Position numbers and translations under genes: made by a program
Shown: piece after piece, positions 6,897-28,549 of the stretch
Layout: each line of letters opens with the position of its first letter
How positions within the stretch are numbered: the stretch's first letter is position 1
DNA from: Minisyncoccota bacterium
Lineage (GTDB): Bacteria > Patescibacteriota > Minisyncoccia > Minisyncoccales > CG1-02-41-26
Assembly: GCA_028718785.1 (NCBI GenBank)
Contig: JAQULB010000006.1
Coordinates: 1-38,611 of the forward strand
Direction of reading: 5' to 3'
Length of the DNA stretch: 38,611 nucleotides
Notes under the pieces: model-generated
The model's input: the letters and a program-made list of their open reading frames with translations, nothing else
Told to the model about the DNA's origin: nothing
The model's database searches: none

Positions 6897-7108
6897 TTCC
6901 AATCCTTTCCTTGCTATTATTAGCAAGAATTAAAAAATCTAGATAACTATCTTATAAACAAAAAATCGTCTTATACGATAATCCGATTTTTAATGAACAC
7001 TAAAATTAAACCTTTTATATTATAACACCTGTTTATTTAATTGTCAAATTTTTTACCCAATCCCCGCCAAAAGAAGACGGTTCTTATCGCGAAGTTGTGG
7101 AGTAAAAA

Positions 7109-7511: not shown

Positions 7512-7842
7512 ATAAAACTTTACCTTTTTGTAAAATGTTCTTAATAAAAAAATCTCCTAAACCCAGCCGTCTTTGTGTTTCTTGGGGAGTATAAATTAAA
7601 AGGTCAGCTGGTAATTCTCTATTTATAATCCGCCGTACTGTTTTGTCTCTGTCAAGATGTCTTGCTTCTGTATTTTTAATAATAAATAAATCAACATCAG
7701 AATCTTTGTTTGGCTTGCCCCAAGCAAAAGAACCGAATAAATAAATTTTTTCGGGTCTGTAGTTTTCCGCTATCCTTTTAACCACATTTTGTATTTCTTT
7801 TTGTTTTATCATTGTTTCTATTATAACTATAACAAAAAACAC
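7498..7842 (-). CDS. MNT-domain nucleotidyltransferase (MntA-like)
   Basis: 'LFGSFAWGKPNKDSDVDLFII' fits GSX10DXD; overlaps the start of the HEPN gene by 14 bp. Confidence 0.85.
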   Translation of the reverse strand: MFFVIVIIETMIKQKEIQNVVKRIAENYRPEKIYLFGSFAWGKPNKDSDVDLFIIKNTEARHLDRDKTVRRIINRELPADLLIYTPQETQRRLGLGDFFIKNILQKGKVLYESN

Positions 7843-7963: not shown

Positions 7964-10378
7964 TTATTTAATGGGGTACACCGCAATAGCGCCAGCGCAA
8001 GACTGTACTTGCCAACGATTGAAATCCAAAAGAGACCCACAGTTACCAACTTGGTTATCGTCTAAGTTATAATCGGACTGAGTAAAGACCTCAGAACGAG
8101 ATGCGGCACCATTTCCTTGATATTCAACTTTCGTGAACCAAAAGTTTGTATTTAATGTCTTTCCAAATAATACAACAGCGCACTTACCATCAATAATAAT
8201 GGACTTTATATTATTAGCGAACTCTACGCTTTTTTTTGTTGTTCCGTCAATCTCAGTAAAAACAGGTAAATATTCCTTTGGACAAGTTGAATCTGGATCA
8301 AGAGTTAAAAGTTTGCTAAATGGCAAGGGTACTGGCAAATAAAAAGGCATCGGATAATAAACAACCTTTGACTCATCTTGCTTATCGTTATCTATTGTAT
8401 AAGCCAAGCAATAACCCAAACCTTTTTTATCTGTGCAAATCTTAACTTCCTTGCACACAGAAGGGTCGTCAGATAATTCAAAAGTTTCTATTGAAGAGGG
8501 AAGCTTGTCTAATACGCCGTATCGAGTTTCCTCGTTAACATGATATTTAGTATCGTTATTTGTAATATAGCTATCGGGGATGTCTATATATTCTATATTT
8601 TTTACATCTTGTGTAGTATCAACCTTCCCATAATTGTCAAATAAAATCATTGGCAAATGGCCGAAATTATAATGATTCCAAAAATAAAAATTTCCTTTTT
8701 TAGAAACTAGTTCGCTGACTTTTGAGGCCTGCGAAGCTTGATTTAGTGTAATATTATAATTTTCATCTGATAGAGTAAGTAAGGTACTATGGCTGGGTTT
8801 TTGAGGTAGATACCTATTGGCGTCTGGCGCGTCTGAAACCGCGTTGCCACAACTTGTGTAGGCCGGAATAAACTTATCTTTCGCTTTGCTTGAGGCAATG
8901 TCTCCCTTGTTCGCATACATTCTCTGTTCAAAATAAACTTTTAGCTTGCCAGAAAAATTGTCGTCTTGATGTAAGATAGCTAAAAAGTCGTGGGGTTCAG
9001 CTGGAGTTTTTTGGGAATTACCATCAGCGTCAACATATGTTCTGGGCGGAATATCATTAATGATTTTTATTTGTGTGGCTTTTTTGTCAAAATTTATGCT
9101 AGGGTCTTTAAAATCTTTGACGGAGGTGTCAAAATATCGCTCGTCGCCATGAGAATCAACTAAATAAACACCCGGACTTGACCAGATAATTTTTACAGAC
9201 AAGGGCGGATGATTGATTGCCCCTGTTTTTTGAGTTTTAACATCCGCTCTAAATTTCTCGTCTTTTATTAAACCAAAATAATAACTGCCAGTGCCCGCAT
9301 TTCGGCTTGTACAGGCGGAAACAGTAAGAGCGCTAATTGGATTGTTATTTGCGTCAAAAAGTTTGTTCACATCCCCATTAGCTGTAAAAAAATTCGCTGC
9401 GTTCAAATATGGAACAGATGTGTTAGTGTAAAACCCAATTGGATTTGGAAAAGACGGCGCAATAGCAACCTGAAAAGATGATACAGTGTCCACCGAACTT
9501 AAATTTTTAAAATACTCTGGATTTATAATAATAACATCCTGAATCTTTGAGGGAGCTGTATCGGTTGTTTTAACGGGAACCGCATTTCCGTCTGTTTTTA
9601 GTAAACCGTTAAAATCATACGCAAAGAAATAATGGCCTGAGCTTTCTGCATAATTTGTTTGATCATAAAAAACAAGCTTAGCGCCTTGAGCTTTCTTCCC
9701 CCATAGAGCAAATGTCCACGGAGTAAAATCGCTAAAATTAACAGAATCTTTATCATTTGGCGTTATTCTAATTTCTGGAAAAGAACCTTTTACGCCAGTG
9801 ATAGAACCCCCGGAAGGACAATAAGAAAGAGACAAGGGACCGAAAACAGAGGTTAGGTCTGGGACGCTGTAGTCAATAAACTTTGCTTGGTTGTCATTTA
9901 CTAAATCATTGATAACTGAAGCGTCATCTGCTGCTTTAAATTTGTCGTATCCTTCTTTGGTGAAAAACACAATTCCTTCTCGCAGGGGCACATAAGAAAT
10001 GCTTGGGATAACCAGCGAGGGGTTCATGGTGTGTAAAACAAACCAAGCGCCAATTAAAATGGTTAGGCCCAATAACGAGCTGTAAATTCTGGTTTTGGCT
10101 CCCGACATTTTGCCAACATCCCCAGCTGAAGTAATATACTGAATACCCCCAGCTATTAAAACTAAAATGGCCACCAATATACAAACCCAAACAATTAAAT
10201 TAAAAATGTATTTGGTTAAAGCTGGAATGCTTTGACTGGCCGAACTCCCAACCAAATTTTGTCCGTTAATACCCGGATATGTTTGCTGTTGAGTGGGCTG
10301 TGTCACTGCCAACCCAACCAAAGGAGTGGCTAATAAAATCCCAAGCAAGAAAAAAATTAAAATTCTTTTTGTTTTCAT
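7964..10378 (-). CDS. Secreted/anchored protein with VirB2/TrbC-pilin-like N-terminal module and beta/gamma-crystallin-like repeats
   Basis: Signal peptide, then 'QQTYPGINGQNL', then two TM helices (IFNLIVWVCILVAILVLIAGGIQYITSA; LLGLTILIGAWFVL). Crystallin-like stretches 'LAILHQDDNFSGKLKVYF' and 'NRWQVQSCAGAIAVYPIK' at the C-terminus. Confidence 0.65.
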   Translation of the reverse strand: MKTKRILIFFLLGILLATPLVGLAVTQPTQQQTYPGINGQNLVGSSASQSIPALTKYIFNLIVWVCILVAILVLIAGGIQYITSAGDVGKMSGAKTRIYSSLLGLTILIGAWFVLHTMNPSLVIPSISYVPLREGIVFFTKEGYDKFKAADDASVINDLVNDNQAKFIDYSVPDLTSVFGPLSLSYCPSGGSITGVKGSFPEIRITPNDKDSVNFSDFTPWTFALWGKKAQGAKLVFYDQTNYAESSGHYFFAYDFNGLLKTDGNAVPVKTTDTAPSKIQDVIIINPEYFKNLSSVDTVSSFQVAIAPSFPNPIGFYTNTSVPYLNAANFFTANGDVNKLFDANNNPISALTVSACTSRNAGTGSYYFGLIKDEKFRADVKTQKTGAINHPPLSVKIIWSSPGVYLVDSHGDERYFDTSVKDFKDPSINFDKKATQIKIINDIPPRTYVDADGNSQKTPAEPHDFLAILHQDDNFSGKLKVYFEQRMYANKGDIASSKAKDKFIPAYTSCGNAVSDAPDANRYLPQKPSHSTLLTLSDENYNITLNQASQASKVSELVSKKGNFYFWNHYNFGHLPMILFDNYGKVDTTQDVKNIEYIDIPDSYITNNDTKYHVNEETRYGVLDKLPSSIETFELSDDPSVCKEVKICTDKKGLGYCLAYTIDNDKQDESKVVYYPMPFYLPVPLPFSKLLTLDPDSTCPKEYLPVFTEIDGTTKKSVEFANNIKSIIIDGKCAVVLFGKTLNTNFWFTKVEYQGNGAASRSEVFTQSDYNLDDNQVGNCGSLLDFNRWQVQSCAGAIAVYPIK

Positions 10379-10495
10379 ATTTTTATATTAGCATATTTGT
10401 AGCCAGCTGCGTTCCTCGAATTTTTGATATTTAATTTGCATTTTTGCTTGCCCTGTAGGGAGCTTGCTCTCCTTTGGGGATATTTAATTTTTGAT

Positions 10496-12571
10496 TTATT
10501 TAACAGGGTAAACAGCAATTGAGGAAACGCAGGAGTGGGGCGGAGTTAATCGCAAAGCGCTGGCCAATGAAACACAAGAGTGAATTGGATAGTTTTTTAA
10601 ATTTAAGTAAGGCACTTGCCCTTCACCAACACCAGAAGTCATATCGCCAACAGAAAACACCATTGATTTTTCACCCGGGGTTTTTCCATCCCAGCAAGAA
10701 TCAACTGTTCCGTCCAAACATTCTTCAAGATTTTTAACACCATTATCATATAAAGCAACAACGCAATTGCCCTTTATACCAATTGATTTGATATTGTCAT
10801 TAAACTCAGTGTTGTCTTTAAATCCTTTTGTGTTTGTTTCTGCTTGATAGGCAGCTTGCTGGTCTGGGGAAGCAATTAAAATGTCTTTCATCCATTCGGG
10901 AAACCTATCGGGTAATGTTATGGGCGTAAACCAAGGCATCGGTAAAAAGAATGACATATATTTACTGCCTTTTGTATTGTTGGCATTAAAAACCAAACAA
11001 TAACCCTGTAAATTTTCTCCATTGCACAAAGCAACCGCCTCACAAGAACTTTCTTCATATCTTTTATCTATTGCATTAAACTTTGACAACTGAAAAATCT
11101 TAGCTGAAGAAGCACCGATAACCTTACCTTGTTGGTCCATCTCGTTTATATTTGTTTTTGCAGTTTCTTGAGTATTTCCAATACGAGAATCTGGTAGCGT
11201 AACAAAACTGCTACTATCTTTTTCATCGCTACTAAAAACGCTCTTAATTGTTCCTAAATTGTTCGTATTTTTATACCATTCATCTTTTGGGTAAAGTGTA
11301 AAAATCGTTGCAACAGGAATAGCGCTTTTTCCATCCTTACCATCTTTTTTCTCAAAAAAAGCGCGGAAGGGGCCTTGAAAATTTGGACCTTGAAATAAAA
11401 ACACCAAAAGATCGTCTTGAACTGATGGGTCTTTGCCTCTATTATTTTTTATTTCAATTTGTACTGCCTGCTTATCAAAATCAAAAGCAGAATCAGCAAA
11501 ATTTGACACATCAAACTGCAAGTATCTTTGCCCGCCCTTGCCTTGAACATATTGCACAGTGGTTTCTGGAGGCACTTCGCCAAAATAGTCCCCCTGCTCC
11601 ACTCCAACTGGTATTGGCTTGTCTGAGCCATACAAATAAACTCCAGATGAAATGCCCTCAACCGATATGGAAAGCGGAGGGTATTGTAAGAGCGCTTCTT
11701 TGGGTGGATTTATAAATGCTTGAGTTACAATATCAAAATATTCGTTATTACTTGCCTCAGATGAGTAGGTTGGCAAATAAAAATAAAATACTTCTAAATT
11801 TCCCGCGCCCCCAACAATTTCCATCCCAGTACTCTCTGGACCGGTTGTTTTAAAAGTGTTGCTTGCGCCTAAAAAGTTTTTGCCAGCAAATGTTTTTACT
11901 TGGATATTTTCCGCGCCTGAGCCAAAAAAACCGATGCAAGCGGGTTGGAAATCTTCAAACGAAATTTGCGGATCTGCATATTTTGTTAACTGGCCAAAAT
12001 TTTGAGTTAAATCGCCTGATTGAGAGCCAAAGTATTTTATTAGTCCGTCATCAGATAATTTATCCAAGTATTCTTTGGTGGTGGCAAGACCTTCTGTTTT
12101 TAACCGCATCATTCCTGCGTCTGAAATTAAAATCACATTAGACACGCTGTAAATATGAGTTATTTGGGGCAAATCTAAATTGGGCGAAATAACCTGAAAA
12201 ATCACAGTTGATGAAACCACGATGGCCAAGCCCAAAAAAGATTTTATTAACCTTGTTTTAGCCAACTTTTGAGCCGCTACTTTTCCAGCTGAAGAAAGAT
12301 ATTGAACCCCAGAAATTATTAAAGCCAAGGTGGTTAAGCCAATCAAAACAACAGAAATTAAAGTAAAAACATACTTTATTAAAGAAGTTGTGTTAATGAT
12401 AGAGTTTTTTTGCGTTTGGCTAACTGCTGTGTTGAGCGATTGACTTTGGCCTGTTATGCCAGAAATAGCAGGATAGTTTTGTTGCAATTTTAAACCAGCC
12501 AAGCTAATGGTTGGCAAAAGCAAAACCGCTACAAAAATTACAACAAAAATTTTATTAAACTTTTTTCGCAT
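10496..12571 (-). CDS. Paralog of the 7964-10378 product: pilin-like N-terminal module plus beta/gamma-crystallin-like repeats
   Basis: 'LQQNYPAISGITGQ' followed by two TM helices; 'LVFLFQGPNFQGPFRAFFEKKDG', 'LCNGENLQGYCLVFNAN', 'IKSIGIKGNCVVALYDNG', C-terminus 'SCVSSIAVYPVK'. Likely start is the ATG overlapping the upstream stop (TAATG), giving MRKKFNK. Confidence 0.65.
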   Translation of the reverse strand: MRKKFNKIFVVIFVAVLLLPTISLAGLKLQQNYPAISGITGQSQSLNTAVSQTQKNSIINTTSLIKYVFTLISVVLIGLTTLALIISGVQYLSSAGKVAAQKLAKTRLIKSFLGLAIVVSSTVIFQVISPNLDLPQITHIYSVSNVILISDAGMMRLKTEGLATTKEYLDKLSDDGLIKYFGSQSGDLTQNFGQLTKYADPQISFEDFQPACIGFFGSGAENIQVKTFAGKNFLGASNTFKTTGPESTGMEIVGGAGNLEVFYFYLPTYSSEASNNEYFDIVTQAFINPPKEALLQYPPLSISVEGISSGVYLYGSDKPIPVGVEQGDYFGEVPPETTVQYVQGKGGQRYLQFDVSNFADSAFDFDKQAVQIEIKNNRGKDPSVQDDLLVFLFQGPNFQGPFRAFFEKKDGKDGKSAIPVATIFTLYPKDEWYKNTNNLGTIKSVFSSDEKDSSSFVTLPDSRIGNTQETAKTNINEMDQQGKVIGASSAKIFQLSKFNAIDKRYEESSCEAVALCNGENLQGYCLVFNANNTKGSKYMSFFLPMPWFTPITLPDRFPEWMKDILIASPDQQAAYQAETNTKGFKDNTEFNDNIKSIGIKGNCVVALYDNGVKNLEECLDGTVDSCWDGKTPGEKSMVFSVGDMTSGVGEGQVPYLNLKNYPIHSCVSLASALRLTPPHSCVSSIAVYPVK

Positions 12572-14478
12572 TATTTCCAAAAAGTTAAAAACGCCAAAAA
12601 GTCAAACAAACCCTTTTTGGCAATGAATTTTCCTTCAATGCAACCGTTTAGATTTTCCTTAACCTGCTTATTGATAAAATCGTCGAGATTAACATTACAA
12701 GCTGGATTCTTATTTGTTTTGCTAGTCTCCTCAAAACAGCCGTTGTCAATTTGATTTTTAAATATCTTCTGCATACAAAAAACTTTTTTAACCCTTATAT
12801 CATCATTAGAGACATCTCCCATATAATGCGCTACTGCTTCTTCTTCGCTACCCTTAAGCTTTTTAAGATCAGAAAGCTTTAACGCTTCGGCAACATAAGC
12901 GTCAACCTCAACCCAAGGATTCGCTTCTGTTGCTTTGGTAATTTTTGTCACCCTATCTTTATAATCTAACCAAGTACTTGGCATAAATTGAGCTGGTCCC
13001 ATTGCTCCTCCATGAAGATCATTACCGCGGCAAGACAACGGAACAGTGTTAAAATCAAGATTAACGCCCACTTTTGCCAAGTCGTCAATAATCACCCTCA
13101 AAGCATTTTTGTCTTCAGTTTTGATAGCAATATTGTCGCCCGAATTCACATTACACCCACCTGCTTGATTTTTAAAACTTGATTCTTTATATGTATTTGC
13201 CATCAAAAGGGCAAGGTCTATATCAGAAAAATACTCATATGCCTCTCGCATATTCTCGTAGACCACTCCGAATCTATCCTCACGAGCAACTATTCTATGT
13301 GTTACGCCCTGTCCTGGGACAAAAACCGTTTCCATAACATCAACGGTCGCAAATATTTGATCATAACTATACCACTGCGGGTTTTGAATTGGTTCTTCGT
13401 GACAGCATACCCAGTTAGCTTTACTGCCTCCGCAAATCCAATCCAAACATTCCTCTTGCGTTAAACCCTCGCACAAACATTCTTTGCACTGGCTGTTAAA
13501 CCCATCCGCGCAATATTTACCACAACACTGAAAGGGTCCAGCCACATCTTTAAAGGGCGCGCATTTATCGTTAAAGCTGTCGCTATAAATCTTGCAGTTT
13601 AAGGTGGCATAAACCGACTCACCCTCACATTTTGCCAAACAATCTTTACATCCTTGGCTAAAAGTTGCGCACTCTTTTTCGCACTCTGGCGACCATGCCT
13701 TAATTGTATACATATCCTTGCTTAAAGCGTCTAAACACTGCATTGGATATTTTTCACCCATTTTTCCTTGGCTAATTCTGGCTCGGTCAAGTTCTGACAA
13801 AGCGCAAGTATTGCCTTGGGGATTTGGGGTTAGCCAAAACTTGTCAACATTATCAATATATCGCCTTACCAAATCAACATCGCTAATTTTTGTTTCCCCT
13901 GCCACTTCTCCGCTTTGCTCAAGTCCTTTTGGCACAACCTCGTTTTTTGAACCAAACAAGGCGTGGATATTATCTGCTTGGGATGACAAGGCAGCAGCTG
14001 TTTTGGCCAAAGAATCAGCGCTGTTAGCTAAATCTGGACAAGGATTGCTTGTGGCTGGTTTTAGTTTACACCCAGGCACTGAGTAGGTGTAACTTCCACT
14101 CCAAAAATAAGCGTTTAAATTAAGTGTTGCGTCTGGTCCAGTATTGCCAACATCCGCTTTGCAACGATCAAAATCGCAAACCTTGCCATTGTTGGCAATA
14201 AGCGACATTAAGTCATCCATTTGTTTTGAAGCGTCTTTAACTGTTTCGCCTTGATAGCGTTGATAAACTTGGTTTAAAAAACCAACGGTTTTTTTAATGG
14301 CAATACCAACCGGAATTGGCTCCTCGCAAATAATTTCCGTGTTTGTATTATAATCAATTGCCATAGCAGGCCCTTCGGTTTTAAGCCAACCCTTCGACAA
14401 GCTCAGGGCAAACCCCGCGCAAACCACTATCACTAAGATTATTTTCCAAATTTTGAATTTCGATTTATAATTTTGCAT
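12571..14478 (-). CDS. Lytic transglycosylase-like (MltB/SLT-type) Cys-rich secreted protein, possible VirB1 analogue
   Basis: 'LLMANTYKESSFKNQAGG' and 'GGAMGPAQFMPSTWLDYKDRV' match lytic transglycosylase catalytic and substrate-binding motifs; N-terminal signal peptide. Confidence 0.75.
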   Translation of the reverse strand: MQNYKSKFKIWKIILVIVVCAGFALSLSKGWLKTEGPAMAIDYNTNTEIICEEPIPVGIAIKKTVGFLNQVYQRYQGETVKDASKQMDDLMSLIANNGKVCDFDRCKADVGNTGPDATLNLNAYFWSGSYTYSVPGCKLKPATSNPCPDLANSADSLAKTAAALSSQADNIHALFGSKNEVVPKGLEQSGEVAGETKISDVDLVRRYIDNVDKFWLTPNPQGNTCALSELDRARISQGKMGEKYPMQCLDALSKDMYTIKAWSPECEKECATFSQGCKDCLAKCEGESVYATLNCKIYSDSFNDKCAPFKDVAGPFQCCGKYCADGFNSQCKECLCEGLTQEECLDWICGGSKANWVCCHEEPIQNPQWYSYDQIFATVDVMETVFVPGQGVTHRIVAREDRFGVVYENMREAYEYFSDIDLALLMANTYKESSFKNQAGGCNVNSGDNIAIKTEDKNALRVIIDDLAKVGVNLDFNTVPLSCRGNDLHGGAMGPAQFMPSTWLDYKDRVTKITKATEANPWVEVDAYVAEALKLSDLKKLKGSEEEAVAHYMGDVSNDDIRVKKVFCMQKIFKNQIDNGCFEETSKTNKNPACNVNLDDFINKQVKENLNGCIEGKFIAKKGLFDFLAFLTFWK

Positions 14479-14507
14479 CTTTGATATTTGATATTTGATT
14501 TTTTATT

Positions 14508-17500
14508 TTATTGTTGTTCCAACTCTTGCTTTAATTTTTCAGCCAAAGATCCAAGCGGATATCGCAAGGTCCACACTAAATGACAAAACGGTTCTTTTAA
14601 TGGCGCCAAAGTTAAAGGCAACCCAGAAATACACAAAGGCACAGGCCCCAGCTGAGGGCAATAACTTTGCCCGCAAGAGCAGTTTTCGTTGGCGTAGTTT
14701 ATAGCCGTGGCCAAGGCCCACAAAAGCTGGGTTTTGTTTTTTATATCATTTGCTTTTTCATAAATTGGACCCACTATGTCGTTTAAATCCGGGTCCATTG
14801 GATAAATATCTTCTCCGGGAATTTCCACTGATAGCTTGCCAAGTCCAATGGCTTTGGTGGGTTGGCGTCTGGTCATATCAATTGCTCTTAAATTTTGCCT
14901 TACCATTGCAAAACTAGCGTCAAGCTGATTAAACTGCTCGTTCACATTCGGACAAACTGGTCCGCCATTTTCACCTGTTAAGGGTTGGCTGTTGCCTGCA
15001 TAGCTTATCATTGGGCTTGCAATACACTTTACATATTGAATTTTAACATTATCTTTAGTGATTTTTTGAATTTCATCTGTTGAATTCCATAATTCAGCAA
15101 ATTTTTTAGGCGCTTCTTTGATTAAATTTACAACATCCTCAGCTCTTTGGCGAACTTTTTGCGCGTCAAAATACAAAGCGCTTAACCCATTGCTGGCTGC
15201 TGTGTATGACTTAACTCCCAATAAAACTGAAAGCACTTTCATAATTTCATTCAAGGGCGTTCGCATATCCGTGGTTGATTGAGAGCAAAGCTTTAAGGCC
15301 ACTTCTCTGGCTTGTTGGGCATCTGCTGTGTTGGCGGTTAAGTCAACTCCTAAGTCATTGCCAAATATCAATGGAATAGAAGAGCATCCAAAAAAGTCCC
15401 CGATACTTTTGTTGGAATTCTTTGGGTCTATTGTTGCAGTGATAATTTTTCCCTGAGTGGCGTCATTTGATTGGCAAAATCCGCTAACCGCTTTTTTTAC
15501 ATTTGCTATATCCTCATCTTGGCTTGTAATTTCGCCTGTGCCTGGTTGTAATTTTCCATCTTTCCACACTGGCGGTTTTGTGGTGAACTCGTTGAGATTC
15601 CAGTCCTTCCAATTTTCGTCAATTGCCACCTTACCACCAAACGCTTTTTGCAAAATACTAAAATTATAACAATCCCTAGCAAAATCAATCTGATAGTTAA
15701 GGTTGTTGCACTGCTTGGCTAATCCATCTAAATTATCGTATATAACAGCTCCCAAGTCATCAATAGCCCCAATGCTTGTGAGCACCTCTTTTAAGGCGTT
15801 TAAATTGGCAATCTCCTGCTGGGTTGATATGCACATATCTTGAGCGCCTTGCCAATTATTTGCGCCAACTGGTGGCCATTGTTTAGAGCCATCTGTTGGA
15901 TTGGCGATTGGATCCCAAACAATATTGGGGGTTATGTCTCTTTGCCCATCTTCATAAGAATTAGGGGCATTGCTACCTTTGTCGCATAATATCACCCCCT
16001 CGCTGGCATCAAGCGCGCTTTGACAATATTTGTTTGTTACTTTAACACAAAACGGGTCAACTTTATTCATGCCAGCCCCCCGTGTTCCACTATCAGGATT
16101 AAGGCAAAACCATTTTGGACATTTTATGTGGTCAGGTCCAACATCCCCGCGAAGTTTGTTTAACTGGTCAATTCTATCTTTAATATACTTGGAATTATCT
16201 TTTAAATTTTCCAACACATCTAAATCAACGCTGGTTAAAATATTACATTGATTTTTTAGCGTGTTGTAGCCCTCTTCAGTATTTCCCGTACCTTGAGCGT
16301 TTGGGGGCAGAGCTTTGGGAGGTAGCAAGCTAAGATTTACAAAAACATCGCCCTCTTTTTGAGTTAAGCGGTTTTCGCACTGGCTTTGAATATCTGCTGG
16401 ATTATTGGTTAAAATTTGTTCTGTGATATTGCAAGCAGGCAAAAGCTTTTGGGAAACAGTGTCGTTGCCCCAAATTAAATCCCACCACAAATATCGGGCT
16501 TGAGTTAAAACATTGCTTGCTAAATCTGTGTATTTTTTTTCGTCAACATCAACTTTATTGTCTTTTATTAAAGCGTCTATTTTTGGTGTTGTGTCTGTTT
16601 TGGGAATGTCTGTGAAAGCGTGTTGCATTGCTAACATTAAATAATTATTCACAGAAGCAGAAACCGCGTTGAATCTTTCTTCTAATGTGCTTAATGGATT
16701 TGCCAATAAATTTGTTTTAAAATACTCGTAGTTTGAAGTGCCAGTTTGTTGACCAACATAAAGCGATGTTTTTTGATCGCATTTTTTTGACGCTAATGTC
16801 CAAGAAGAGCACGAAATTGTTTCTGTAATAACCTTGCCATCTTTATCAAGCGTGGCATTGCCATCTTTATCAAGGGGAGACCTATAAAAACTGCAACTAT
16901 TATTATTTTCTTGTGGACAACCAGCTCTGCAACACTGAACTTTTTCGTCTACCTCATCAACCAAGTTTGGTTTTATAGTAACTGGGTTCATATCCATTGA
17001 CGGCTCAATGGCTTTTATATTTTCACCTGCTTGAATTAAGCCAAAAGCCGCGTTTTCAATATCAAATAAAATATCAGGATAAACTGTTAGTTGGTCAAAT
17101 GTTCGGCCATTGCTTTCTTCAAAGCACGCTAATTTGCATAGAAATGTGCTATTACCCGGACTTCCAGAGCATTTACCAACGCCACATCGATACAAATTAC
17201 CAAGCCCTTGTGGTCCAATTTTTGCGTAAGCAAAATCAATAACACCATAATCATCAAGATTAACAACGCCATCTCCATTCATATCTATACTATTGTTTTT
17301 TAAAATATTTATTGCCCTGTTAAACCCATCAACTATATTCTTTAGCGTTCTTGTTTGATCATTATCTCCCACTGCCACAATAAGTTGATTCAACGCTGTT
17401 ATATTGTCGTTAATAGTGGCAATGGCGCTTTGGGCGTCGGGAATCTGTTTGCCTATAATGTCTTGAGAATTAATTTTTAATTTTAAGATTTTATTTATCG

Positions 17501-20500: not shown

Positions 20501-22118
20501 ATCCCGAAAAATCAAGCTCAATATTTCTTGTGGGTAATGTTGTTGTGCAGTAATAAGGATAGTTTTCAATGGGACAATCTTTGTTGCTTGGGTCGCAAAA
20601 ATCGCTCCAGTCACCTTTTTGTAAATCGCTTAAATTACTGCCGTCTTTCAAATTAGCGGTTTGGGAAATATCGCTCATAAACTCATCTACTGAGCGGAAA
20701 AATAATTGAAAATCGTTTAAAATGCTTGTTAGTTGTTTTTTCTTGTCGCTTTGGGCTTCTATTTGAAAGAAAAATGAAAACTCATCCTCATTTTTAAAAC
20801 TGGTTCTTATATTTTCCACGCTTGATTTTAACTTTTCATTGGCTTGTATGGCTGATGATTTAGCAGTTGCAAACTTTAAGTTATTTTGAGCAAAATTACC
20901 AAGCATATCTTGCATTCCATTAACCGCTTTTTCAACCCTGCTGGTATTTAAAACCGCGCTGGCAGCCACTCCACCCAAAAGCCCATTGCCAGCTGTTAAA
21001 GCGCTTCCTGCCTTGCCTTCAAGCCAGCCAATATTTCCTCCACTGCTCACCCCAATTTCTTTTAATTGATTGCCTCCATAAATAGACGCCACAGCGCCCC
21101 CGCCATATATTAAAACATCGCTCCACTTTAAACCCAAATTAGTAAAGCTGGCATACATTGAAGATAATTGCCCCATCACATTAAACAAATCATTTAAAAA
21201 TGTAACCCCAGAGCTTAAAGCGTCTTTAATGGCAGTGTAAATTTTAAACGCCTGATTTATCATTTTGGCAATGTTTAAAATTTTCTGAATAACTGTTAGC
21301 CAGCCCCCAGGAATAAATAAAGCCGCCACATCAAGCAACGAAACGCTAAAAGCCACTTCGCCAATCCTCAACGAACAATTGGTGCGACAGTTTCTTATAA
21401 ACGAACAATCCGTGAATGGATCGGTGGCGTTGAAAATTTTAAAAGCTGAGTAAACTTCTTGGGCCGCTGATGTTTGCAACCTGTTTAAATAAATGCAGGC
21501 CTTATTTTTTGCCAATATTTTGCTTTCGCATTTTTCCCCAGATCCCGAGCAATTATTATCCCCGGGCAAGGGGATGGACAATTCACAAATCTCTGGCAAA
21601 GATGTTTTGGGAATTGTTAGCTCGCCTTTTTTAGAATTAATACAATCTGGAGGAATCTCGCTTGGCATACCCTTGAGCATACTCGTTGTATCTGCTATGC
21701 ATACTACTTTTTCATCAAAGCTCTTTTTTTCATCACAAGATGCTTCAATATACTTATCTAAACAACCAGGCACAAGATCTGGCTCCTCTAAATCAATTTG
21801 GCTTTGGACTTGTTTGCCGTCAATGCTTAATGTGAATTGCGAAAATGGATTAACCTGTTTAATGCAATTTCCATTCCCATCCTTTTGGGCGCAATTATTT
21901 GGCAGGTTGTTAATTAAAGGATATGAGCCAACTTTTAAAGCGCCTTTTTCAGTTACGGTAATGTCTGGTAGGGCAATCTTGGTGGTTAACTTTTTTAACC
22001 AGTCCCCAACCAAAGAGGCCTGAGCGGGCTGGCGAGCTGGAACAAATTGCAAAAACAACGACAAAATCGTTAAAACGCAAACAAATTTATTAATTTTTTT
22101 AAGAAAATTCTTTTTCAT
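14508..22118 (-). CDS. Giant (2536 aa) Cys-rich secreted surface protein with a DUF4215-like repeat, tandem Cys modules and a dockerin/EF-hand-like motif
   Basis: Signal peptide MKKNFLKKINKFVCVLTILSLFLQF; 'CGNNKTETGEQCDDGNTESQDGCSFDCQYE' resembles the Myxococcus Cys-rich repeat; 'DMNGDGVVNLDDYGVIDF'; three tandem two-part Cys modules. Confidence 0.75.
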   Translation of the reverse strand: MKKNFLKKINKFVCVLTILSLFLQFVPARQPAQASLVGDWLKKLTTKIALPDITVTEKGALKVGSYPLINNLPNNCAQKDGNGNCIKQVNPFSQFTLSIDGKQVQSQIDLEEPDLVPGCLDKYIEASCDEKKSFDEKVVCIADTTSMLKGMPSEIPPDCINSKKGELTIPKTSLPEICELSIPLPGDNNCSGSGEKCESKILAKNKACIYLNRLQTSAAQEVYSAFKIFNATDPFTDCSFIRNCRTNCSLRIGEVAFSVSLLDVAALFIPGGWLTVIQKILNIAKMINQAFKIYTAIKDALSSGVTFLNDLFNVMGQLSSMYASFTNLGLKWSDVLIYGGGAVASIYGGNQLKEIGVSSGGNIGWLEGKAGSALTAGNGLLGGVAASAVLNTSRVEKAVNGMQDMLGNFAQNNLKFATAKSSAIQANEKLKSSVENIRTSFKNEDEFSFFFQIEAQSDKKKQLTSILNDFQLFFRSVDEFMSDISQTANLKDGSNLSDLQKGDWSDFCDPSNKDCPIENYPYYCTTTLPTRNIELDFSGYVNTGDESSPSFLCYLRNGVKIGESAKCTGTWLDNFITATDGSQTWKDAFELLNPEYIAKKIVGCENPCLDESCPPTAAEKGQCDLICYKSSGKCDISYQNKNWRLYWEDLGRRVGTYKNFLLARQYLISHGKDAIAVTKILDLLLGGKGKCVNVCSNPNIVPDYRNLYEYEFPGGVDRKGTTVEGRHSDFLHYMVDLFPSLSYIRELDALYSESTSWGGSEDSPGVRQKIEESLQSLRIGIQRDIGFFSLGLNQIKNNIENLNTCVDNLHTAPNPLEGAQYWENILFYSNTPTPINSSAWSQGYNADVAYENWDEKINILKSNAEKIDDVKQALELGVSPEQPIVVYKIAQANDILEKIKATAQTLNDDNKEQWQALVDQIINSIIYGNPKDGFNGTCSVESCPIDNTQDITTCLRDDRGNCRNCYAKENNMVLRDRCEGGIFQTKIFGDNETSCKNYLNCCADQGNSPGANACCDIGVACDKGLQTNKDLYFGNPDTGSPSYKEECDDCLNQSCEDCSSNLPGGAVCGNNKTETGEQCDDGNTESQDGCSFDCQYEKYKCNGAVCSNVGNGNGIYTDSKCENKCVSAPPDSGNYKCRDISNQLGTGANYWCKCVEYPTQESSFVCANRMLSDVPQRKDCYSTEQNCINNVGTPDITPPKYKCSGSPDYVCSENSSGVYTSLATCRNSCQKPNPNLGSTLCRYLFDISPLAPWCNCQESPRDTDAQCAFLRGCYPLESTCNDNELAGTTPPPPGSNTKHYRCSGANCLRDDENGAYTTSNCDNRCNATSPTYSCRLVDVNGPKPYCMCQTGPTYESNMNCINRGDCYVDSHCSVSGKSASPFAKNILNNLQQRLESFAKSLIAIPKVFAQTAKQYCYSGCVINTCPNTLSECNASFDNFCRTSNRYCALEQNIYDKYKCFEHYEPIYSNGCVEYNEGKTQIENLEAQRGSLKNAIITIDENLQSVIKDISDSFQGLQSDWNAPMEWFSSEHQESATASTTINKILKLKINSQDIIGKQIPDAQSAIATINDNITALNQLIVAVGDNDQTRTLKNIVDGFNRAINILKNNSIDMNGDGVVNLDDYGVIDFAYAKIGPQGLGNLYRCGVGKCSGSPGNSTFLCKLACFEESNGRTFDQLTVYPDILFDIENAAFGLIQAGENIKAIEPSMDMNPVTIKPNLVDEVDEKVQCCRAGCPQENNNSCSFYRSPLDKDGNATLDKDGKVITETISCSSWTLASKKCDQKTSLYVGQQTGTSNYEYFKTNLLANPLSTLEERFNAVSASVNNYLMLAMQHAFTDIPKTDTTPKIDALIKDNKVDVDEKKYTDLASNVLTQARYLWWDLIWGNDTVSQKLLPACNITEQILTNNPADIQSQCENRLTQKEGDVFVNLSLLPPKALPPNAQGTGNTEEGYNTLKNQCNILTSVDLDVLENLKDNSKYIKDRIDQLNKLRGDVGPDHIKCPKWFCLNPDSGTRGAGMNKVDPFCVKVTNKYCQSALDASEGVILCDKGSNAPNSYEDGQRDITPNIVWDPIANPTDGSKQWPPVGANNWQGAQDMCISTQQEIANLNALKEVLTSIGAIDDLGAVIYDNLDGLAKQCNNLNYQIDFARDCYNFSILQKAFGGKVAIDENWKDWNLNEFTTKPPVWKDGKLQPGTGEITSQDEDIANVKKAVSGFCQSNDATQGKIITATIDPKNSNKSIGDFFGCSSIPLIFGNDLGVDLTANTADAQQAREVALKLCSQSTTDMRTPLNEIMKVLSVLLGVKSYTAASNGLSALYFDAQKVRQRAEDVVNLIKEAPKKFAELWNSTDEIQKITKDNVKIQYVKCIASPMISYAGNSQPLTGENGGPVCPNVNEQFNQLDASFAMVRQNLRAIDMTRRQPTKAIGLGKLSVEIPGEDIYPMDPDLNDIVGPIYEKANDIKNKTQLLWALATAINYANENCSCGQSYCPQLGPVPLCISGLPLTLAPLKEPFCHLVWTLRYPLGSLAEKLKQELEQQ
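18005..18824 (-). repeat. Three tandem Cys-rich protein modules (A+B) inside the 2536-aa protein
   Basis: A: YKCNGAVCSNVGNGNGIYTDSKCENKC / YKCSGSPDYVCSENSSGVYTSLATCRNSC / YRCSGANCLRDDENGAYTTSNCDNRC. B: YKCRDISNQLGTGANYWCKC.. / LCRYLFDISPLAPWCNC.. / YSCRLVDVNGPKPYCMC.. Confidence 0.85.
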
Positions 22119-22123
22119 TGTTT

Positions 22124-25100
22124 TTACTTGGTAAGCGAATCCAAGGGAAGCTGTCCATCAGCCATCATTTCAGCCACATTTTCTAAATGCGAAGAAAATC
22201 TATTAACAATACACTGGCTCACTGTGGAGCAACAATAACCTTGGTCTTCAACAGTTGGAGTTGTTCCTGTGGGAAGGGGAGGGAGAGTTTGTTTGTAAGT
22301 TTCGTAAAACTTACAAACGCCGTTTGCTTGGTCTTTTGTTTCATAAGAAGAATCTCCGTTTTCATCTGATGCTCGACACTTGCCACCTGCGTCAAAATTA
22401 ACTGCTCTGGCTTTTTTGCAAAACTTTATTACAGGAACGCAACACTTGCTGTTGTCGTTGGGGTTTTCCACCTCATTTGCCTCACAACCCTCTAGTGGCT
22501 TTGGTCTGCATGTTAATGGCTCTGTTGTTTGAAAACCATAAGATGTGTTGTCGTCGGGATTATTGGTTTCAGAGCCCGCAAAACAACATATCCGGTGAAC
22601 CGCGCCATCAATAAATTGTTGTTCCACACTTGGTCTTTCTCCCGACAATACATCGCATTGCAAAACTTTATCATCCACTTCTCGACATCTTGGTTGACAA
22701 GACTCGCCTTTGGCCAAAATACAACACTCTTTTTTGTTGCTTGTTGTTATTCTTTCAACCTCGCCTTTTTTTGTGTCACACTGACCAGCCATGGCCCCAG
22801 TTGTTGGCTGGGGGTAACAAGGCGCGCCAGCAATATCATTGGCTGTATTTTTACCAACATTAAATCCATAAAATTCCGCTAACCACTGAGGGGCTATGCT
22901 TTGGGGCCAATCAACCAAAGCGCTTTGCAATCCGTCTTGAAGCGCTTTAACTCCGGACTTAGCGCCTTTATCCGCCCAATCTTTTATATTAGTTATAGGT
23001 CCGCCAATTTTATTCCCTATAAGCGCGTCAAGCCCGGTTAAAGCCCCTAATGTGTCAACAATTGGCTGGCCCAAAGCAGTATTAGCGGAAATTGCGTCCA
23101 TTAAACTTTGACCCGACTTAATAGACAATGGCTTGTTTAAATATGTTGCCACTAAATCAAGAGGAGTTGATTTTAATATGTCTGTTATTTTTGCGCTGTT
23201 ATTTTTCCACGCTGTGTCAATTTTCGCATCGCATAAAGCAGGGTCTATTTGGTTGCAAATATAATCAGCTATTGTTTGTTGGCTAAACAATTTATCCATT
23301 ATATCTCCAATTGGAGTTGTCATAAAATCAAGCGTGTCCCCAAAAGCCACTTTTGCTGGGTTTGGTTCTCTATAAACCAAAATCAAGTTTTCTCCTGCTG
23401 TTGGTTTGTAAAAATAATAGCTTACAGCCACAGCGTTTCTTTTATCTGTTAGCATTCCCAGGATATTTGCTTGGGGAACATTGATTTGTTTTTCAAAAAA
23501 CACATTTATGTTTTGATCAGCTGGAACAATAAGATCATCAATTGGCAAGCCATTGGCTTGTAAATCAGCAATTATCGTGGGAGAACAGCCAGACCTAACA
23601 GTTTTATTTAAAGCCAAACAGCCCATTGAATCAGAAATTGTTGTTATATAAGGGAACACCCCGCTAAATCCTGTATCATTTACAGGCATTGTTTGTTGCA
23701 GTTCTCTTAAAGCATCAATGGGATCTCTTGTTTCCATATAATCCAAAAGTTGGCTTAAACCAGCTGGTTTTTCACCCACCTTATAGCAAAGATTAAGATT
23801 TGCGTCACAGCACAAGCCCTGTCCGCCTCTTTCAATAAACTGCTCGCCCTTTTGACAATCCGAAGGACTGCCATCTTTTAAATCTTGCAACATATCAAAT
23901 AAAATTTGAAATTCCTCAGGTTTAATATAATTTTTTAAAGGCAAGTCAAGCCCAAAAACTTCTTTGGGAGCTTGATTAAGCATATCGCAAAAAGCGCGCT
24001 CATCAGTGCCTTCTTCGGTTTGGGGACAAACCTTGTCCACAAACGCTTGATAGGGGGTTAGCCCTAAAATTTCATCTTGTTTAAGTAAATTTCTAAGAGT
24101 TAAATCTTGAACACTCAAACCTTTATTTAATATTTCAACAAAAGAAGAAAGCCCAAAACCTGCTCTCTTTTTTTCTTCCACATCTGTCCAAGCAATTTCT
24201 CTTTTTTTAGCTGCTGCTTGAATATCGCTATCAAACACTGGAAAATCATTATCCATATCAGCGTAAAATTGCGTTTCATCATTTTTTTGGCTCGAACTCC
24301 TATCGCTCAGCAATGGCTTTTGAGTTGATAAAGAAATTAAAGAATAAAAAATTGAATTTTGTGCTAAAGAACTGCAAGTTTGGCACACATTTTCATCAGC
24401 ATAACAAGAACTATTGGTTATTTTTGGGCAATAATACTTGCAATAACATTGCCCGGGACAATTGGCTTGATTGCCATAGGAACCACAGCTCTTAACTATG
24501 GTGTCTTTAATAATCTTGCCCACTGTTGTTTGCCCAAAAGCCACGCTGGGTGAGCAAGCCCCATAAACAAAAGCGCACCAGGGCTTTAAATTTATTTGAT
24601 CTGATGTTAGTTCTGAGTCCTTTTTAAAAACCGGAATAATGCCAAACTGGCTGGAGATAATATTTTGGCACAAGCTCGCTGGGGCTATAAAGTTATTATT
24701 CTCCTGCTTTAAAATTGGCAGTGTTCCACAAACCAAATTCTTTGGCGTGCCATCTTTGCCCACAAGCTTTTTAATAGCGTCTAAAGGAGAGTTGGGGAAA
24801 AATATGCTTAACAGCGGTCTGTTAAACCAGTTATTAATATCAAAACATTTATCTTCCCCGCCAATGCAAATACTGCTTAAAACATCAATGAGTTTGCTGT
24901 TTAAGGTTTCAACGCCTTTACAAAGGTTGTCTTCAAGAGGCACTCTGTCTCCCACCGCAGTATTGTTGTTTCTGTCGCACATTATTGTTATTTCTTGCCA
25001 AGGAGTGGTGTTAAAGGCCTTGTCAATTTTACAAATTGCGTCGCCTGTTTCTTGGGGAATATCCATTTTTTGCTCTATGGAGTTTTTACCATCCCAAAAA

Positions 25101-28100
25101 ACGCCTTTTGGCATATCAATTGTAAAATTAAACTTTACTTCCTCATTATTAGCTTTTTGTATGTCAGTTAGTTTCGCTTTTTCTTTTTTGTATTGATCAC
25201 AAAAATTGCCTAACTGAGTGGTTATATTGCTTTGTAAAATTCCAGAGATTTGAGCGGGTAAAATTCCTCTCACTGATGTTGTTAAAAAGTCCTCCATACC
25301 TTGCTGAAAACCAGAAATGGCATTCCAATAACCCATTAAGGGGTTTATAAAATTATCTTCCACAAAAACCCGAGCATAAGCCAAAGCAAACTGCAAAGCG
25401 GTTTCGGTAAAAGCGGTTGCCATTTTTTCTGCGTAATTGACCATACCTCCAGCAATATATGTTTCGGTTTTATCCAAACTGGTAATGGTGTCTGCTGCAG
25501 CTTTTGCATCTTGAGCTAAATTATCTTGTTTATAACAGCCAGAACCCCCCTCGCTCCCATCCCAAGCATACCCGGCAACATTCCCGCAAATTGATTGAGC
25601 AGACTTCTTTGGCACTGAAAAATACTTTACACTTTTTATTTTTGCAGTTTCTGATAAATCTGTTGCGTCTTCAAAAACAAAACTTTGGGGTACTTCTATT
25701 TCTTGCTTTGCTAATGTGGTAATTTCACCTGGCGTCATTAAAACACACTTTCCAGAATCCGCCTCTGTTTTTCCTACAAAATTTGTCCTGCCTTTCAAAT
25801 ATTGCCCGTTGTTATCTTTATAAACATATCCTTGCTCTAATTTTTCAAAACAAGCAGAAAGAGTTAAGTGTTCAATGCCAATGCCAAGTTTGTCAAATTG
25901 GTTTTGTGCCCATTCGTGCATTGGGTCCCCAACATATTCTTTTACTAAAGCGTCGGCCATATTTTTAGAAGCGCTTTTAGCTAATGATTTTGTTGAACTA
26001 ACTGTGTCATCAAACCAATTATTAAAGCTTGTAATTTGATTAACAATAAAGCTTGGCAACACATCTTTCATTTGCTTGTCAAGCAAGGTGTTGAGCCCGG
26101 GAATTTGATCTTGGAAGGGTGTGGACAAAGCGCCTTTAAAAATTGTGTCATAAACATTCTTCATTGGCGTGTTTAAAAATTTGCCAATTGTGTGTTCTGA
26201 ATCATTTGGAAATAAAATGTTTATAACATTTGTATTTAAAATACTGCTAATATTTGGCAGCTCGCTTGCCAAACTGGCGTCAAAAAGATGGGAAAATGTT
26301 TTGGAAAGATAATTTGGAGGCACCCCATTAGATATTAAATTTTTAACGCAATAACAGCAGGTGTCGTTTAATGCAGACGCTATTGGGCAATTATTTTGGG
26401 AAAACTTTGTAATAATGTCTTGCGCTGCCTCATTGTTAGTTTTGCATCCAGCTGAAGCGCATTTAACTAAATATGTTTTAATAAGAGCAACGTTAGTGTC
26501 ACTAACAATTCCATCTTTTATACCATCAATGGTAGCTTGGGCTATTTTATCTTTCATATTTTGAATAACCGCTTTTAAGTGGTCAGCCGCCCCGCTATCC
26601 ATAACTGCTTTTACAACATCTTCAATTTGGCCTTGATTTAAATTATAGGTTGCTTGCCCAAAAGCCGAGGTTAGGCAATCCCTAAAAATTTGCTCAATTC
26701 CCTCAAGTGGCAAGTCGGTTAATAAAGAAAACAAATTATATCTTCTGGCATCTCTGGCAATGGCGTTGTTTTTGTCGGTAATAGTTAGATCTTGCACTCC
26801 TGCTGGAGCGTGAATAATGTAAAAGAAATCACTGCCACTGACCGCTTGGGTGATAATAAAAGCATCGTTAATCGCTTGTTTATCATACATACTTTGAGCC
26901 CAAGCAAAATTAGCAGTAAGCGGAGAAAAAAGCGACTTTAACCGAGCTAAAAATCCGCTTTTATTTTTAGTATCAATAACTATAGGAGCATTCATGTCAC
27001 TATATCCGTTTGTATTTAAAACAACCAAAGGATAACCAGCATCTTGTATTTTTTTGGCTTCATTGGCAAAATCAAAACCCCAATACCCTGTAGCTTGGCT
27101 GGTGGAAAATTCAATACTATTGGCATTTAAAGCGCGAAGGATTAAGTCAGCGCTGTCTAAAAATCGGGCGTCTATTTTTGCTCTGGCTTGCAATTTGGCT
27201 TGCTGTTCTTGGATTTGCAAAACTTTATATTTGATTAAAGCGTCTACTTTTATTTTTGTGGGGAATAGCGCGTCTTTTGGAGCAACGCCGTTATTTTTTT
27301 GGCAGTCATCAGGAGTGGTGGGAATACGAAGAAGGCCTTCCGTATTAGCATCTGTTATCAAAATCCAACAAGGATCTGATTTTATTGTATCACCCACTAA
27401 TTGGTCTGGCTTGCATACTCCCCCATATCTTGCGCAAACTTGGATCGCCCCATCTTTTGTTTCTCGCACATCATGTAAATCGCAAGTTAAACATCCATTG
27501 TAATCTTTTGCTGTTCCGCAATTATCTGCTTGATTCAAACAGGCCTGGCCATTCATTTGGTTTTGAGTTATTTTGGTTTTATCTTCAAGCCCGGGCTTGC
27601 ATCCAGAATTGCCCAAAGATGTATCAGAATATCCAAGCGATATTCCGCATTGACATTTTTTTTGCAAATCTTGCAATTCCAAAACCAACTGAGCCACTTT
27701 TTTTAACGCGTCGGCTGTTTCTCGCAAAGGTATTTCCGCTCTATATATTACTTGGTCTTGAACTTCTCCTGTTGCTTGAGCGCCTGTGAACAAAAAAGCA
27801 AAAACCTTGTTCCAAAACCCTTGATTATTTTTTGAGGGGGCAATAGCAACAATATTTTTTGTTGGTAGCACACATCCATTCATCCTAACTGGATCTTTTT
27901 CGTCCATATCTCTTAGATACTTTCCATTTTTATCCATTGTTCCTCCGTAGCCATCAGTTAAGCAATCCTTTCCGTTGATTTTTTCATAATACTGGTTGTT
28001 TTTGTCTATATGGATTTCTTCTTCTAAGTTATCTAACGAGCTATTTAAATCCCCAGCAAACGAAACCCTTTGAGCCACTACTGTGTTGGGGTTGTATGGG

Positions 28101-28549
28101 CTGGCGGTGGTTGAAGTAATTTGTTTGAGTTCTGGTTTTTGTAATGTTAAAGAAAGCAATTGAGGGTTTATAAAATAAAGAAACAAATAAGCGCAAATTA
28201 AAATAAAAAGCCCCAGCATGGCGTTGCTTGCCATTTGTTTTGATAAAGTTAAATATTTGGGCCTTGAAGAAGAAACAATATACAAAACCCCCGAAACAAG
28301 CAAAGCAATCAAACCAGCCCCAATGGATATAAAAAACACCAGCTTAAAAATATAGCTTGTGATAAAACCAATTTGCTGGCTTGTGGTTACATTTTGATAA
28401 TCGCTCAGCCGACCCAATCCCGGGATGTTGGGATATGAAAGCTCCAAAGCCAAAGCAAATCTTCCCATTAAAATAAAAATGACAACCAAAAAACCAAACA
28501 AAACTTTCTTAAGGGCTTTATGCCTTATGTTGCAAATTTCATGTTTCAT
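22124..28549 (-). CDS. Giant (2141 aa) secreted/anchored protein with VirB2/TrbC-pilin-like N-terminal module
   Basis: N-terminus 'LELSYPNIPGLGRLSDY...IFKLVFFISIGAGLIALLVSGVLYIVSS...AMLGLFILICAYLFLYFINPQL', the same layout as the two 694-804 aa proteins; long Cys-containing extracytoplasmic remainder. Confidence 0.65.
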   Translation of the reverse strand: MKHEICNIRHKALKKVLFGFLVVIFILMGRFALALELSYPNIPGLGRLSDYQNVTTSQQIGFITSYIFKLVFFISIGAGLIALLVSGVLYIVSSSRPKYLTLSKQMASNAMLGLFILICAYLFLYFINPQLLSLTLQKPELKQITSTTASPYNPNTVVAQRVSFAGDLNSSLDNLEEEIHIDKNNQYYEKINGKDCLTDGYGGTMDKNGKYLRDMDEKDPVRMNGCVLPTKNIVAIAPSKNNQGFWNKVFAFLFTGAQATGEVQDQVIYRAEIPLRETADALKKVAQLVLELQDLQKKCQCGISLGYSDTSLGNSGCKPGLEDKTKITQNQMNGQACLNQADNCGTAKDYNGCLTCDLHDVRETKDGAIQVCARYGGVCKPDQLVGDTIKSDPCWILITDANTEGLLRIPTTPDDCQKNNGVAPKDALFPTKIKVDALIKYKVLQIQEQQAKLQARAKIDARFLDSADLILRALNANSIEFSTSQATGYWGFDFANEAKKIQDAGYPLVVLNTNGYSDMNAPIVIDTKNKSGFLARLKSLFSPLTANFAWAQSMYDKQAINDAFIITQAVSGSDFFYIIHAPAGVQDLTITDKNNAIARDARRYNLFSLLTDLPLEGIEQIFRDCLTSAFGQATYNLNQGQIEDVVKAVMDSGAADHLKAVIQNMKDKIAQATIDGIKDGIVSDTNVALIKTYLVKCASAGCKTNNEAAQDIITKFSQNNCPIASALNDTCCYCVKNLISNGVPPNYLSKTFSHLFDASLASELPNISSILNTNVINILFPNDSEHTIGKFLNTPMKNVYDTIFKGALSTPFQDQIPGLNTLLDKQMKDVLPSFIVNQITSFNNWFDDTVSSTKSLAKSASKNMADALVKEYVGDPMHEWAQNQFDKLGIGIEHLTLSACFEKLEQGYVYKDNNGQYLKGRTNFVGKTEADSGKCVLMTPGEITTLAKQEIEVPQSFVFEDATDLSETAKIKSVKYFSVPKKSAQSICGNVAGYAWDGSEGGSGCYKQDNLAQDAKAAADTITSLDKTETYIAGGMVNYAEKMATAFTETALQFALAYARVFVEDNFINPLMGYWNAISGFQQGMEDFLTTSVRGILPAQISGILQSNITTQLGNFCDQYKKEKAKLTDIQKANNEEVKFNFTIDMPKGVFWDGKNSIEQKMDIPQETGDAICKIDKAFNTTPWQEITIMCDRNNNTAVGDRVPLEDNLCKGVETLNSKLIDVLSSICIGGEDKCFDINNWFNRPLLSIFFPNSPLDAIKKLVGKDGTPKNLVCGTLPILKQENNNFIAPASLCQNIISSQFGIIPVFKKDSELTSDQINLKPWCAFVYGACSPSVAFGQTTVGKIIKDTIVKSCGSYGNQANCPGQCYCKYYCPKITNSSCYADENVCQTCSSLAQNSIFYSLISLSTQKPLLSDRSSSQKNDETQFYADMDNDFPVFDSDIQAAAKKREIAWTDVEEKKRAGFGLSSFVEILNKGLSVQDLTLRNLLKQDEILGLTPYQAFVDKVCPQTEEGTDERAFCDMLNQAPKEVFGLDLPLKNYIKPEEFQILFDMLQDLKDGSPSDCQKGEQFIERGGQGLCCDANLNLCYKVGEKPAGLSQLLDYMETRDPIDALRELQQTMPVNDTGFSGVFPYITTISDSMGCLALNKTVRSGCSPTIIADLQANGLPIDDLIVPADQNINVFFEKQINVPQANILGMLTDKRNAVAVSYYFYKPTAGENLILVYREPNPAKVAFGDTLDFMTTPIGDIMDKLFSQQTIADYICNQIDPALCDAKIDTAWKNNSAKITDILKSTPLDLVATYLNKPLSIKSGQSLMDAISANTALGQPIVDTLGALTGLDALIGNKIGGPITNIKDWADKGAKSGVKALQDGLQSALVDWPQSIAPQWLAEFYGFNVGKNTANDIAGAPCYPQPTTGAMAGQCDTKKGEVERITTSNKKECCILAKGESCQPRCREVDDKVLQCDVLSGERPSVEQQFIDGAVHRICCFAGSETNNPDDNTSYGFQTTEPLTCRPKPLEGCEANEVENPNDNSKCCVPVIKFCKKARAVNFDAGGKCRASDENGDSSYETKDQANGVCKFYETYKQTLPPLPTGTTPTVEDQGYCCSTVSQCIVNRFSSHLENVAEMMADGQLPLDSLTK

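Follow-up and report, generated by a model that had tools for sequence, protein, structure and literature searches.

The window, as we call the whole 38,611-nucleotide stretch analysed here (contig JAQULB010000006.1, our contig C6, of an 841-kb genome of Paceibacterota, Patescibacteria), carries a type IV secretion system (T4SS) operon in which three large proteins, P1, P2 and P5, begin with a common pilin-like module. The source bacterium is tiny and probably host-dependent. The closest named relatives of its VirB4 were from Paceibacterota/Parcubacteria: a metagenome-assembled genome (94% identity), 'Candidatus Paceibacterota' (83%) and Gribaldobacteria (75%).

The T4SS locus

On the minus strand the genes were ordered PrgI/VirB3, TrsD, VirB4, P5 (2141 amino acids, aa), P4 (2536 aa), P3 (635 aa), P2 (691 or 694 aa) and P1 (804 aa), an order kept throughout the family. 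VirB4 and P5 were separated by 3 bp, P5 and P4 by 5 bp, P4 and P3 by 29 bp and P2 and P1 by 117 bp, and P3 and P2 overlapped. The P1, P2 and P5 genes are part of a tight T4SS operon with virB4, near dnaA; rnpA, yidD, yidC, jag, dnaA and dnaN, named by eye, lay at the right end of the window. The possibility that the large open reading frames (ORFs) were assembly artefacts was ruled out because syntenic large ORFs recurred in many independent genomes.

The secretion genes comprised a VirB4-type ATPase of the CD1110 family (28553–30343, minus strand; NF045971, E = 8e-105, over the cut-off), a TrsD or VirB4-N-like protein recognised by profile scan (30538–31173, minus) and a PrgI/VirB3-like protein (31302–31733, minus; PF12666, E = 5e-6, over the cut-off). 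A 685-aa VirB6/TrbL-like polytopic protein (3282–5339, plus) was encoded beside the operon on the opposite strand, and VirB6-like genes were syntenic in related loci. With this VirB6 match counted at E = 0.0015 (PF04610), under the cut-off, the window held VirB4, PrgI/VirB3, TrsD and VirB6 together near dnaA, as in MPF-FATA-like T4SSs of Patescibacteria.

A common N-terminal module on P1, P2 and P5

All three proteins are encoded on the minus strand. P5 (22124–28549) consisted of a signal peptide, a T4SS-pilin module at residues 59–133 (28151–28375) and a Cys-containing, largely helical ectodomain of about 2000 aa. In P2 (10496–12571) the signal peptide and module were followed by an ectodomain of predicted beta-gamma-crystallin type; the ORF was listed as 694 aa from a TTG, with the in-frame ATG at 12571 (691 aa) as the likelier start, and the module occupied residues 64–137 of the 694-aa ORF (12170–12391). 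P1 (7964–10378), with its module at residues 51–125 (10004–10228), was a full-length paralogue of P2, the two being related over their entire length at 24–27% identity. The modules of P1 and P2 were found by Pfam and profile searches, and that of P2 also in its structural model. They followed one plan with that of P5: signal peptide, YPxxxG motif, two adjacent helices and an INPxL exit.

The initial annotation had noticed a shared N-terminal module on these proteins, and the motifs that it quoted (QQTYPGINGQ in the 804-aa, QQNYPAISGI in the 694-aa and ELSYPNIPGL in the 2141-aa protein) and the three basic loops were all present in their places. Similarity to P5 in blastp (P1, E = 1.3e-11; P2, E = 7.6e-10) was confined to the first 145 aa or so. 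A profile built from P5-type modules alone retrieved P1 (2.7e-24) and P2 (2.1e-21), and P5 was retrieved by the reverse profile (2.2e-26), while no other ORF of the window scored (best non-pilin E-values 0.97 with the P5-type profile and 0.19 with the reverse profile); P3 and P4, lying between P5 and P2, were devoid of the module. None of 900 block-shuffled copies that kept the hydropathy profile reached the real scores, and Gly, Pro and Asn positions were conserved beyond hydropathy. Chance or low-complexity resemblance is excluded by the blastp values, the profile cross-matches and the shuffles.

The two hydrophobic helices with a short basic loop, also described in the initial annotation, were borne out by the structural models, in both of which the helices were adjacent. 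The P2 model (mean predicted local distance difference test score, pLDDT, of 74) had a signal helix, a disordered linker, helices at residues 61–93 and 98–128 and then a mostly beta ectodomain, and AlphaFold placed the hairpin helices of P5 at residues 56–95 and 97–127. By these models, hydropathy and loop charge, the signal peptide was followed by two adjacent transmembrane (TM) helices with a short loop, as in T4SS_pilin proteins. Mean charge was +1.4 in the loop and −0.2 and −0.1 in the segments on either side, which fits a loop on the inside and both ends on the outside, the topology we infer.

Family assignment

Judged by profile, the module belongs to the Pfam family T4SS_pilin (PF18895), which is VirB2-like. 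This family matched 18 of 18 isolated modules (best E = 3e-13). Whole-protein scans gave 7e-6 for P1 and 2e-5 for P2 (both just under the curated cut-off) and 0.0067 for P5 (clearly under it); in the genome-wide search P1 and P2 exceeded the cut-off and P5 fell slightly under it (24.5 versus 26.6 bits). In hhalign the modules matched the ordinary small pilins found in this phylum with a probability of 99.2% and E = 1.5e-19 over 70 columns. The likeness to VirB2/TrbC pilins proposed in the initial annotation therefore stood through PF18895 and the small pilins, and failed as a direct match to TrbC/VirB2 (PF04956), which was not significant for the modules of the window. The PF04956 matches of the genome itself were to other, small pilins, under the cut-off. 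One fused relative, a 1239-aa protein of the same phylum located within a tandem array of small pilins (locus L054), exceeded the cut-off (E = 1.1e-8; 35.5 versus 27.9 bits), and the same region also matched PF18895. The module is thus tied to VirB2 through intermediates of its own family.

Fused and stand-alone pilins in one slot

Near oriC, related Parcubacteria had the gene order PrgI-TrsD-VirB4-X-jag-yidC-dnaA. In eight loci X was a stand-alone pilin directly 3' of virB4 (L094, L097, L098, L102, L103, L108, L110 and L112), and in a ninth (L084) a small pilin lay just upstream of PrgI. The stand-alone slot pilins of these nine loci were 113–140 aa long (one ORF was called at 208 aa from an upstream start) and consisted of a signal peptide, LxLxYPxFGG or a similar motif, the hairpin, INPELT or a similar motif, and a stop. 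Elsewhere, pilin modules with large ectodomains were found among the genes after virB4 (L067, L069–L072, L074, L075, L079–L083, L085, L105 and L114).

Profiles of the P5-type and the P1/P2-type N-termini matched all nine slot pilins from the signal peptide to the last residues, with E-values of 1e-20 to 1e-35. INPxL after the second TM helix was present in 61 of 75 fused modules, 9 of 9 slot pilins and 1 of 24 other small pilins; for YPxxxG the corresponding counts were 72/88, 9/9 and 2/25. The two motifs mark slot-type pilins, fused or bare, and seldom occur in array-type pilins. A tree of the modules intermixed fused with stand-alone slot pilins inside one starred clade and had 16 label changes overall, at least three of them forced by starred branches; the tree rests on 86 columns, leaves many forks open and does not give the direction of change, whether gain or loss of cargo. 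Because the profiles of fused N-termini match slot pilins over nearly their full length, P1, P2 and P5 are, as far as their sequences tell, slot pilins with 550–2000 aa added at the C-terminus.

Ectodomains and partner proteins

A structure search with the P2 model identified a pair of beta-gamma-crystallin-like domains at residues 310–691 (10499–11644, minus strand). The match to human gammaD crystallin covered two domains (Z = 11.7, 169 residues aligned, root-mean-square deviation 3.2 Å; Foldseek E = 4.4e-4), and a single-domain match to 1hdf (Z = 10.7) had an aligned range starting at residue 182. The P2 ectodomain is thus modelled as a set of beta-gamma-crystallin-like domains, and that of P1 is by homology predicted to be of the same kind. 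No Pfam crystallin match (PF00030) at the cut-off was found, a single relative giving 0.036. The P1/P2 cargo profile matched 26 ORFs of the fetched loci, and all of them also carried the pilin module.

The initial annotation had envisaged either a membrane anchor recognised by the T4SS or pilin subunits with effector or adhesin cargo. The adhesin part, widened to wall processing, agrees with the domains found on such modules elsewhere in the phylum; effector cargo received no support, and no toxin or enzyme domain was detected in the cargo of the pilin fusions of the window. Adhesin-like cargo comprised Ig-like (Big_5), TIG, CARDB, laminin-G, VWA and FG-GAP domains, and wall-lytic cargo SLT, Amidase_2 and 3D, the 3D domain being on a P1 relative. 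At L064:4826-10030 two neighbouring pilin fusions carried SLT with Amidase_2 and SLT with a GDSL lipase, that is, VirB1-like enzymes on a pilin base.

P4 (14508–22118, minus), which keeps its syntenic place between P5 and P3 across the family, is a Cys-rich giant with a signal peptide, 117 Cys and one hydrophobic stretch near residue 255. A relationship between P4 and P5 was rejected, blastp revealing no similarity. P3 (12571–14478, minus) had a conserved Cys-rich N-terminal domain and, in this genus only, a C-terminal SLT-like (VirB1-like) transglycosylase region; SLT_2 was weak in three members of the P3 family including that of the window, and the motif was clear (ESSF...GGAMGPAQFMPSTW). 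One P3 relative carried a 3D domain. Wall-lytic domains appear, from these assignments, to shift between neighbouring proteins.

Distribution and evolutionary tempo

Of 24 family genomes, 23 encoded P5 relatives, among them all 17 near-complete ones, and in a phylum-wide sample of 286 genomes PF18895 was present in 279. Hand counts found modules on open frames of 350 aa or more in 14 of 16 genomes from the order and in 4 of 14 single-contig genomes of the wider phylum; the frames were measured from stop to stop, which makes these counts slightly generous. The fetched loci gave 136 module hits: 88 had the module at the N-terminus, ahead of an ectodomain, 9 had it at the C-terminus, behind an ectodomain, 34 were small, and 5 were internal or doubled. 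These proportions are not frequencies, the loci having been picked partly for large frames or VirB4.

The genome itself encoded small pilins on other contigs: a tandem set of five on C5, a single one on C3, and another on C2 next to a 1387-aa protein. The five on C5 (L048:7602-10394) had nearly identical hairpins and differing N-terminal ectodomains of about 70–120 aa, which is suggestive of cassette-like variation or gene conversion. The 1387-aa protein (L047:2099-6262, about 16098–20261 of C2) had a CARDB-like domain and a C-terminal module (residues 1317–1382), a mirror-image fusion with its cargo N-terminal to the module, and was directly followed by the small pilin. Pilin concatemers, in which two or three modules follow one another in a single protein, were observed at L065:99-2045 and L066:4106-5919.

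Between the window and a congener (G023), identity was 94% for VirB4 and TrsD, 84% for PrgI, 63–73% for the modules and 44–48% for the ectodomains and for P3 and P4. A near-frozen motor with fast-changing outside parts is the pattern of host-facing proteins, and relaxed constraint would look alike.

Other observations in the window and related loci

VirB6-like proteins of 1166–1446 aa in Wildermuthbacteria and relatives (L086, L093, L094 and L113) were reminiscent of extended VirB6 proteins elsewhere. A trade-off between the lengths of VirB6 and of the fused pilins was unsupported (rho = −0.39, p = 0.19, n = 13). Nucleotidyltransferase/HEPN-like genes, by eye possible toxin-antitoxin modules, lay beside the T4SS genes at 1558–2410, 7498–7842 and 32772–33450. 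Upstream of a 361-aa gene (5841–6926) lay a sequence that matched an extended promoter of the sigma-70 type perfectly (TTGACA-17-TATAAT with TG; 7019–7047, minus strand), and the gene was followed by a strong terminator-like hairpin at 5781–5811.

Discussion

Patescibacteria T4SSs with small VirB2-like pilins and pilin arrays are known (PMC12102498), and a pilin array is essential in S. epibionticum (PMC10633639). The T4SS of a cultivated Patescibacterium was the first described as essential for the survival of its owner, its role being unknown (PMC12857230, PMC10633639). PrgB-type adhesins are reported absent in Patescibacteria, and VirB1 enzymes and VirB8–10 core parts are few near virB4 (PMC12102498). 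Our search, which covered open-access papers and left subscription papers, preprints and supplements outside its scope, found no account of pilin modules that carry giant ectodomains at the C-terminus; the giant pilin fusions are likely unreported.

We lean towards the view that P1, P2 and P5 are VirB2-like, cargo-bearing pilin subunits of a Patescibacteria T4SS with large C-terminal ectodomains. They would be exported by Sec, and the hairpin inserted so that its two ends face outwards and the basic loop lies on the cytoplasmic side. The VirB4/VirB3/VirB6 translocon would recognise the hairpin as it does pilins, and the hairpin would be packed, as a minor or tip subunit of the T4SS channel or of a short pilus, beside the small pilins encoded elsewhere in the genome, which could form the shaft. 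The crystallin-like and helical ectodomains would lie around the channel, both in the wall zone and on the cell surface, and contact the host cell, with P4 and the transglycosylase-like P3 as co-expressed partners. Ectodomains placed at the machine in this way may serve as its adhesive and wall-processing parts.

Several points weigh against such a role. Polymerisation of P1, P2 or P5 has no supporting observation; packing major subunits with three large ectodomains from each operon would be difficult, and the genome encodes its small pilins on other contigs (C2, C3 and C5), outside the P1–P5 operon. PF04956 gave no match to the three proteins at E ≤ 1. Sequence searches of solved structures with the P1/P2 alignment and the module alignments returned no T4SS pilin, the matches being chance or designed proteins; a structure search with the P2 model listed none either, its list being filled by the crystallin part and so uninformative on the hairpin. 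The P5 model was poor outside the hairpin (pLDDT 53, predicted template modelling score 0.30).

The linkage of fused pilins with virB4 in one operon would also suit hairpins that stay in the membrane and ring the VirB4/VirB6 translocon as a static scaffold, the ectodomains forming a wall-spanning sheath in place of the VirB7/8/9/10 core missing in these monoderms. Homologues of VirB8–10 are rare in Patescibacteria (PMC12102498), ectodomains of up to about 2000 aa suit an envelope-spanning shell, and the hairpin is kept while cargo length and content vary. However, sister lineages hold a bare pilin of 113–140 aa in the same slot, with no ectodomain for a sheath, and we regard this arrangement as unlikely. 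It is quite improbable that the hairpin is merely a two-helix membrane anchor for surface proteins, with no T4SS interaction: the slot and the virB4 operon, both conserved in the family, the Gly, Pro and Asn positions conserved beyond hydropathy and the near full-length match to slot pilins argue against it, although any two-helix anchor would be topologically sufficient and cargo modules also occur C-terminally (9/136 hits), internally (5/136) and in loci without a recognised T4SS gene. Least credible, and very improbable in our judgement, is a use of the module as a T4SS recognition tag by which the whole proteins are delivered into the host cell as effectors. Proximity to VirB4 and fast-evolving ectodomains (44–46% identity to the congener versus 94% for VirB4) speak for it, but the Sec signal peptides and TM hairpins indicate insertion into the membrane, most of the cargo domains recognised elsewhere are adhesive or wall-lytic, and the fusions of the window lack toxin and enzyme domains.

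As cargo-bearing pilins, P1, P2 and P5 resemble the small PF18895 pilins of Patescibacteria in the hairpin module, signal peptide and virB4 neighbourhood near dnaA. Whereas those are described as small proteins or arrays, the proteins of the window add 550–2000 aa past the hairpin, the YPxxxG motif and the INPxL exit. With TrbC/VirB2 pilins (PF04956) they have in common a two-helix hairpin with both ends predicted outside and a basic cytoplasmic loop, yet their modules are not significant to that profile. To our knowledge, canonical VirB2 carries no large C-terminal domain. The Mbov_0395 family of pilin-like conjugal transfer proteins (NF045849), from integrative and conjugative elements of mollicutes, also belongs to a monoderm T4SS context and weakly matched P1 (2.7e-4, a score far under its cut-off), but its members have 80 residues and no ectodomain. 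The P2 ectodomain is modelled with the fold of beta-gamma-crystallins (gamma-D crystallin, Protein S, clostrillin; Z = 11.7), although identity is about 16% and none of the crystallins among the matches listed has a pilin-hairpin anchor. The fusions would fill the same contact role as the PrgB-type surface adhesins of Gram-positive conjugation systems, to which no homology was seen.

More tentatively, and with some doubt, T4SS pili or channels of Patescibacteria might in general be a mix of bare and cargo-bearing pilins, on which adhesins, lectins and wall hydrolases are covalently mounted, with lineages swapping cargo to match the host cell. If P1, P2 and P5 are indeed cargo-bearing pilins, they would be concrete candidates for the host-touching parts that are absent from surveys, and YPxxxG, a hairpin, INPxL and then a long ectodomain would form a sequence signature for finding such parts in any genome of the Candidate Phyla Radiation. 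Host specificity would become testable via cargo, and the concept of a conjugative pilin, a small filament subunit, would widen to include a base on which surface proteins are mounted. The conserved pilin-ectodomain arrangement could supply the missing host-contact parts of the T4SS.

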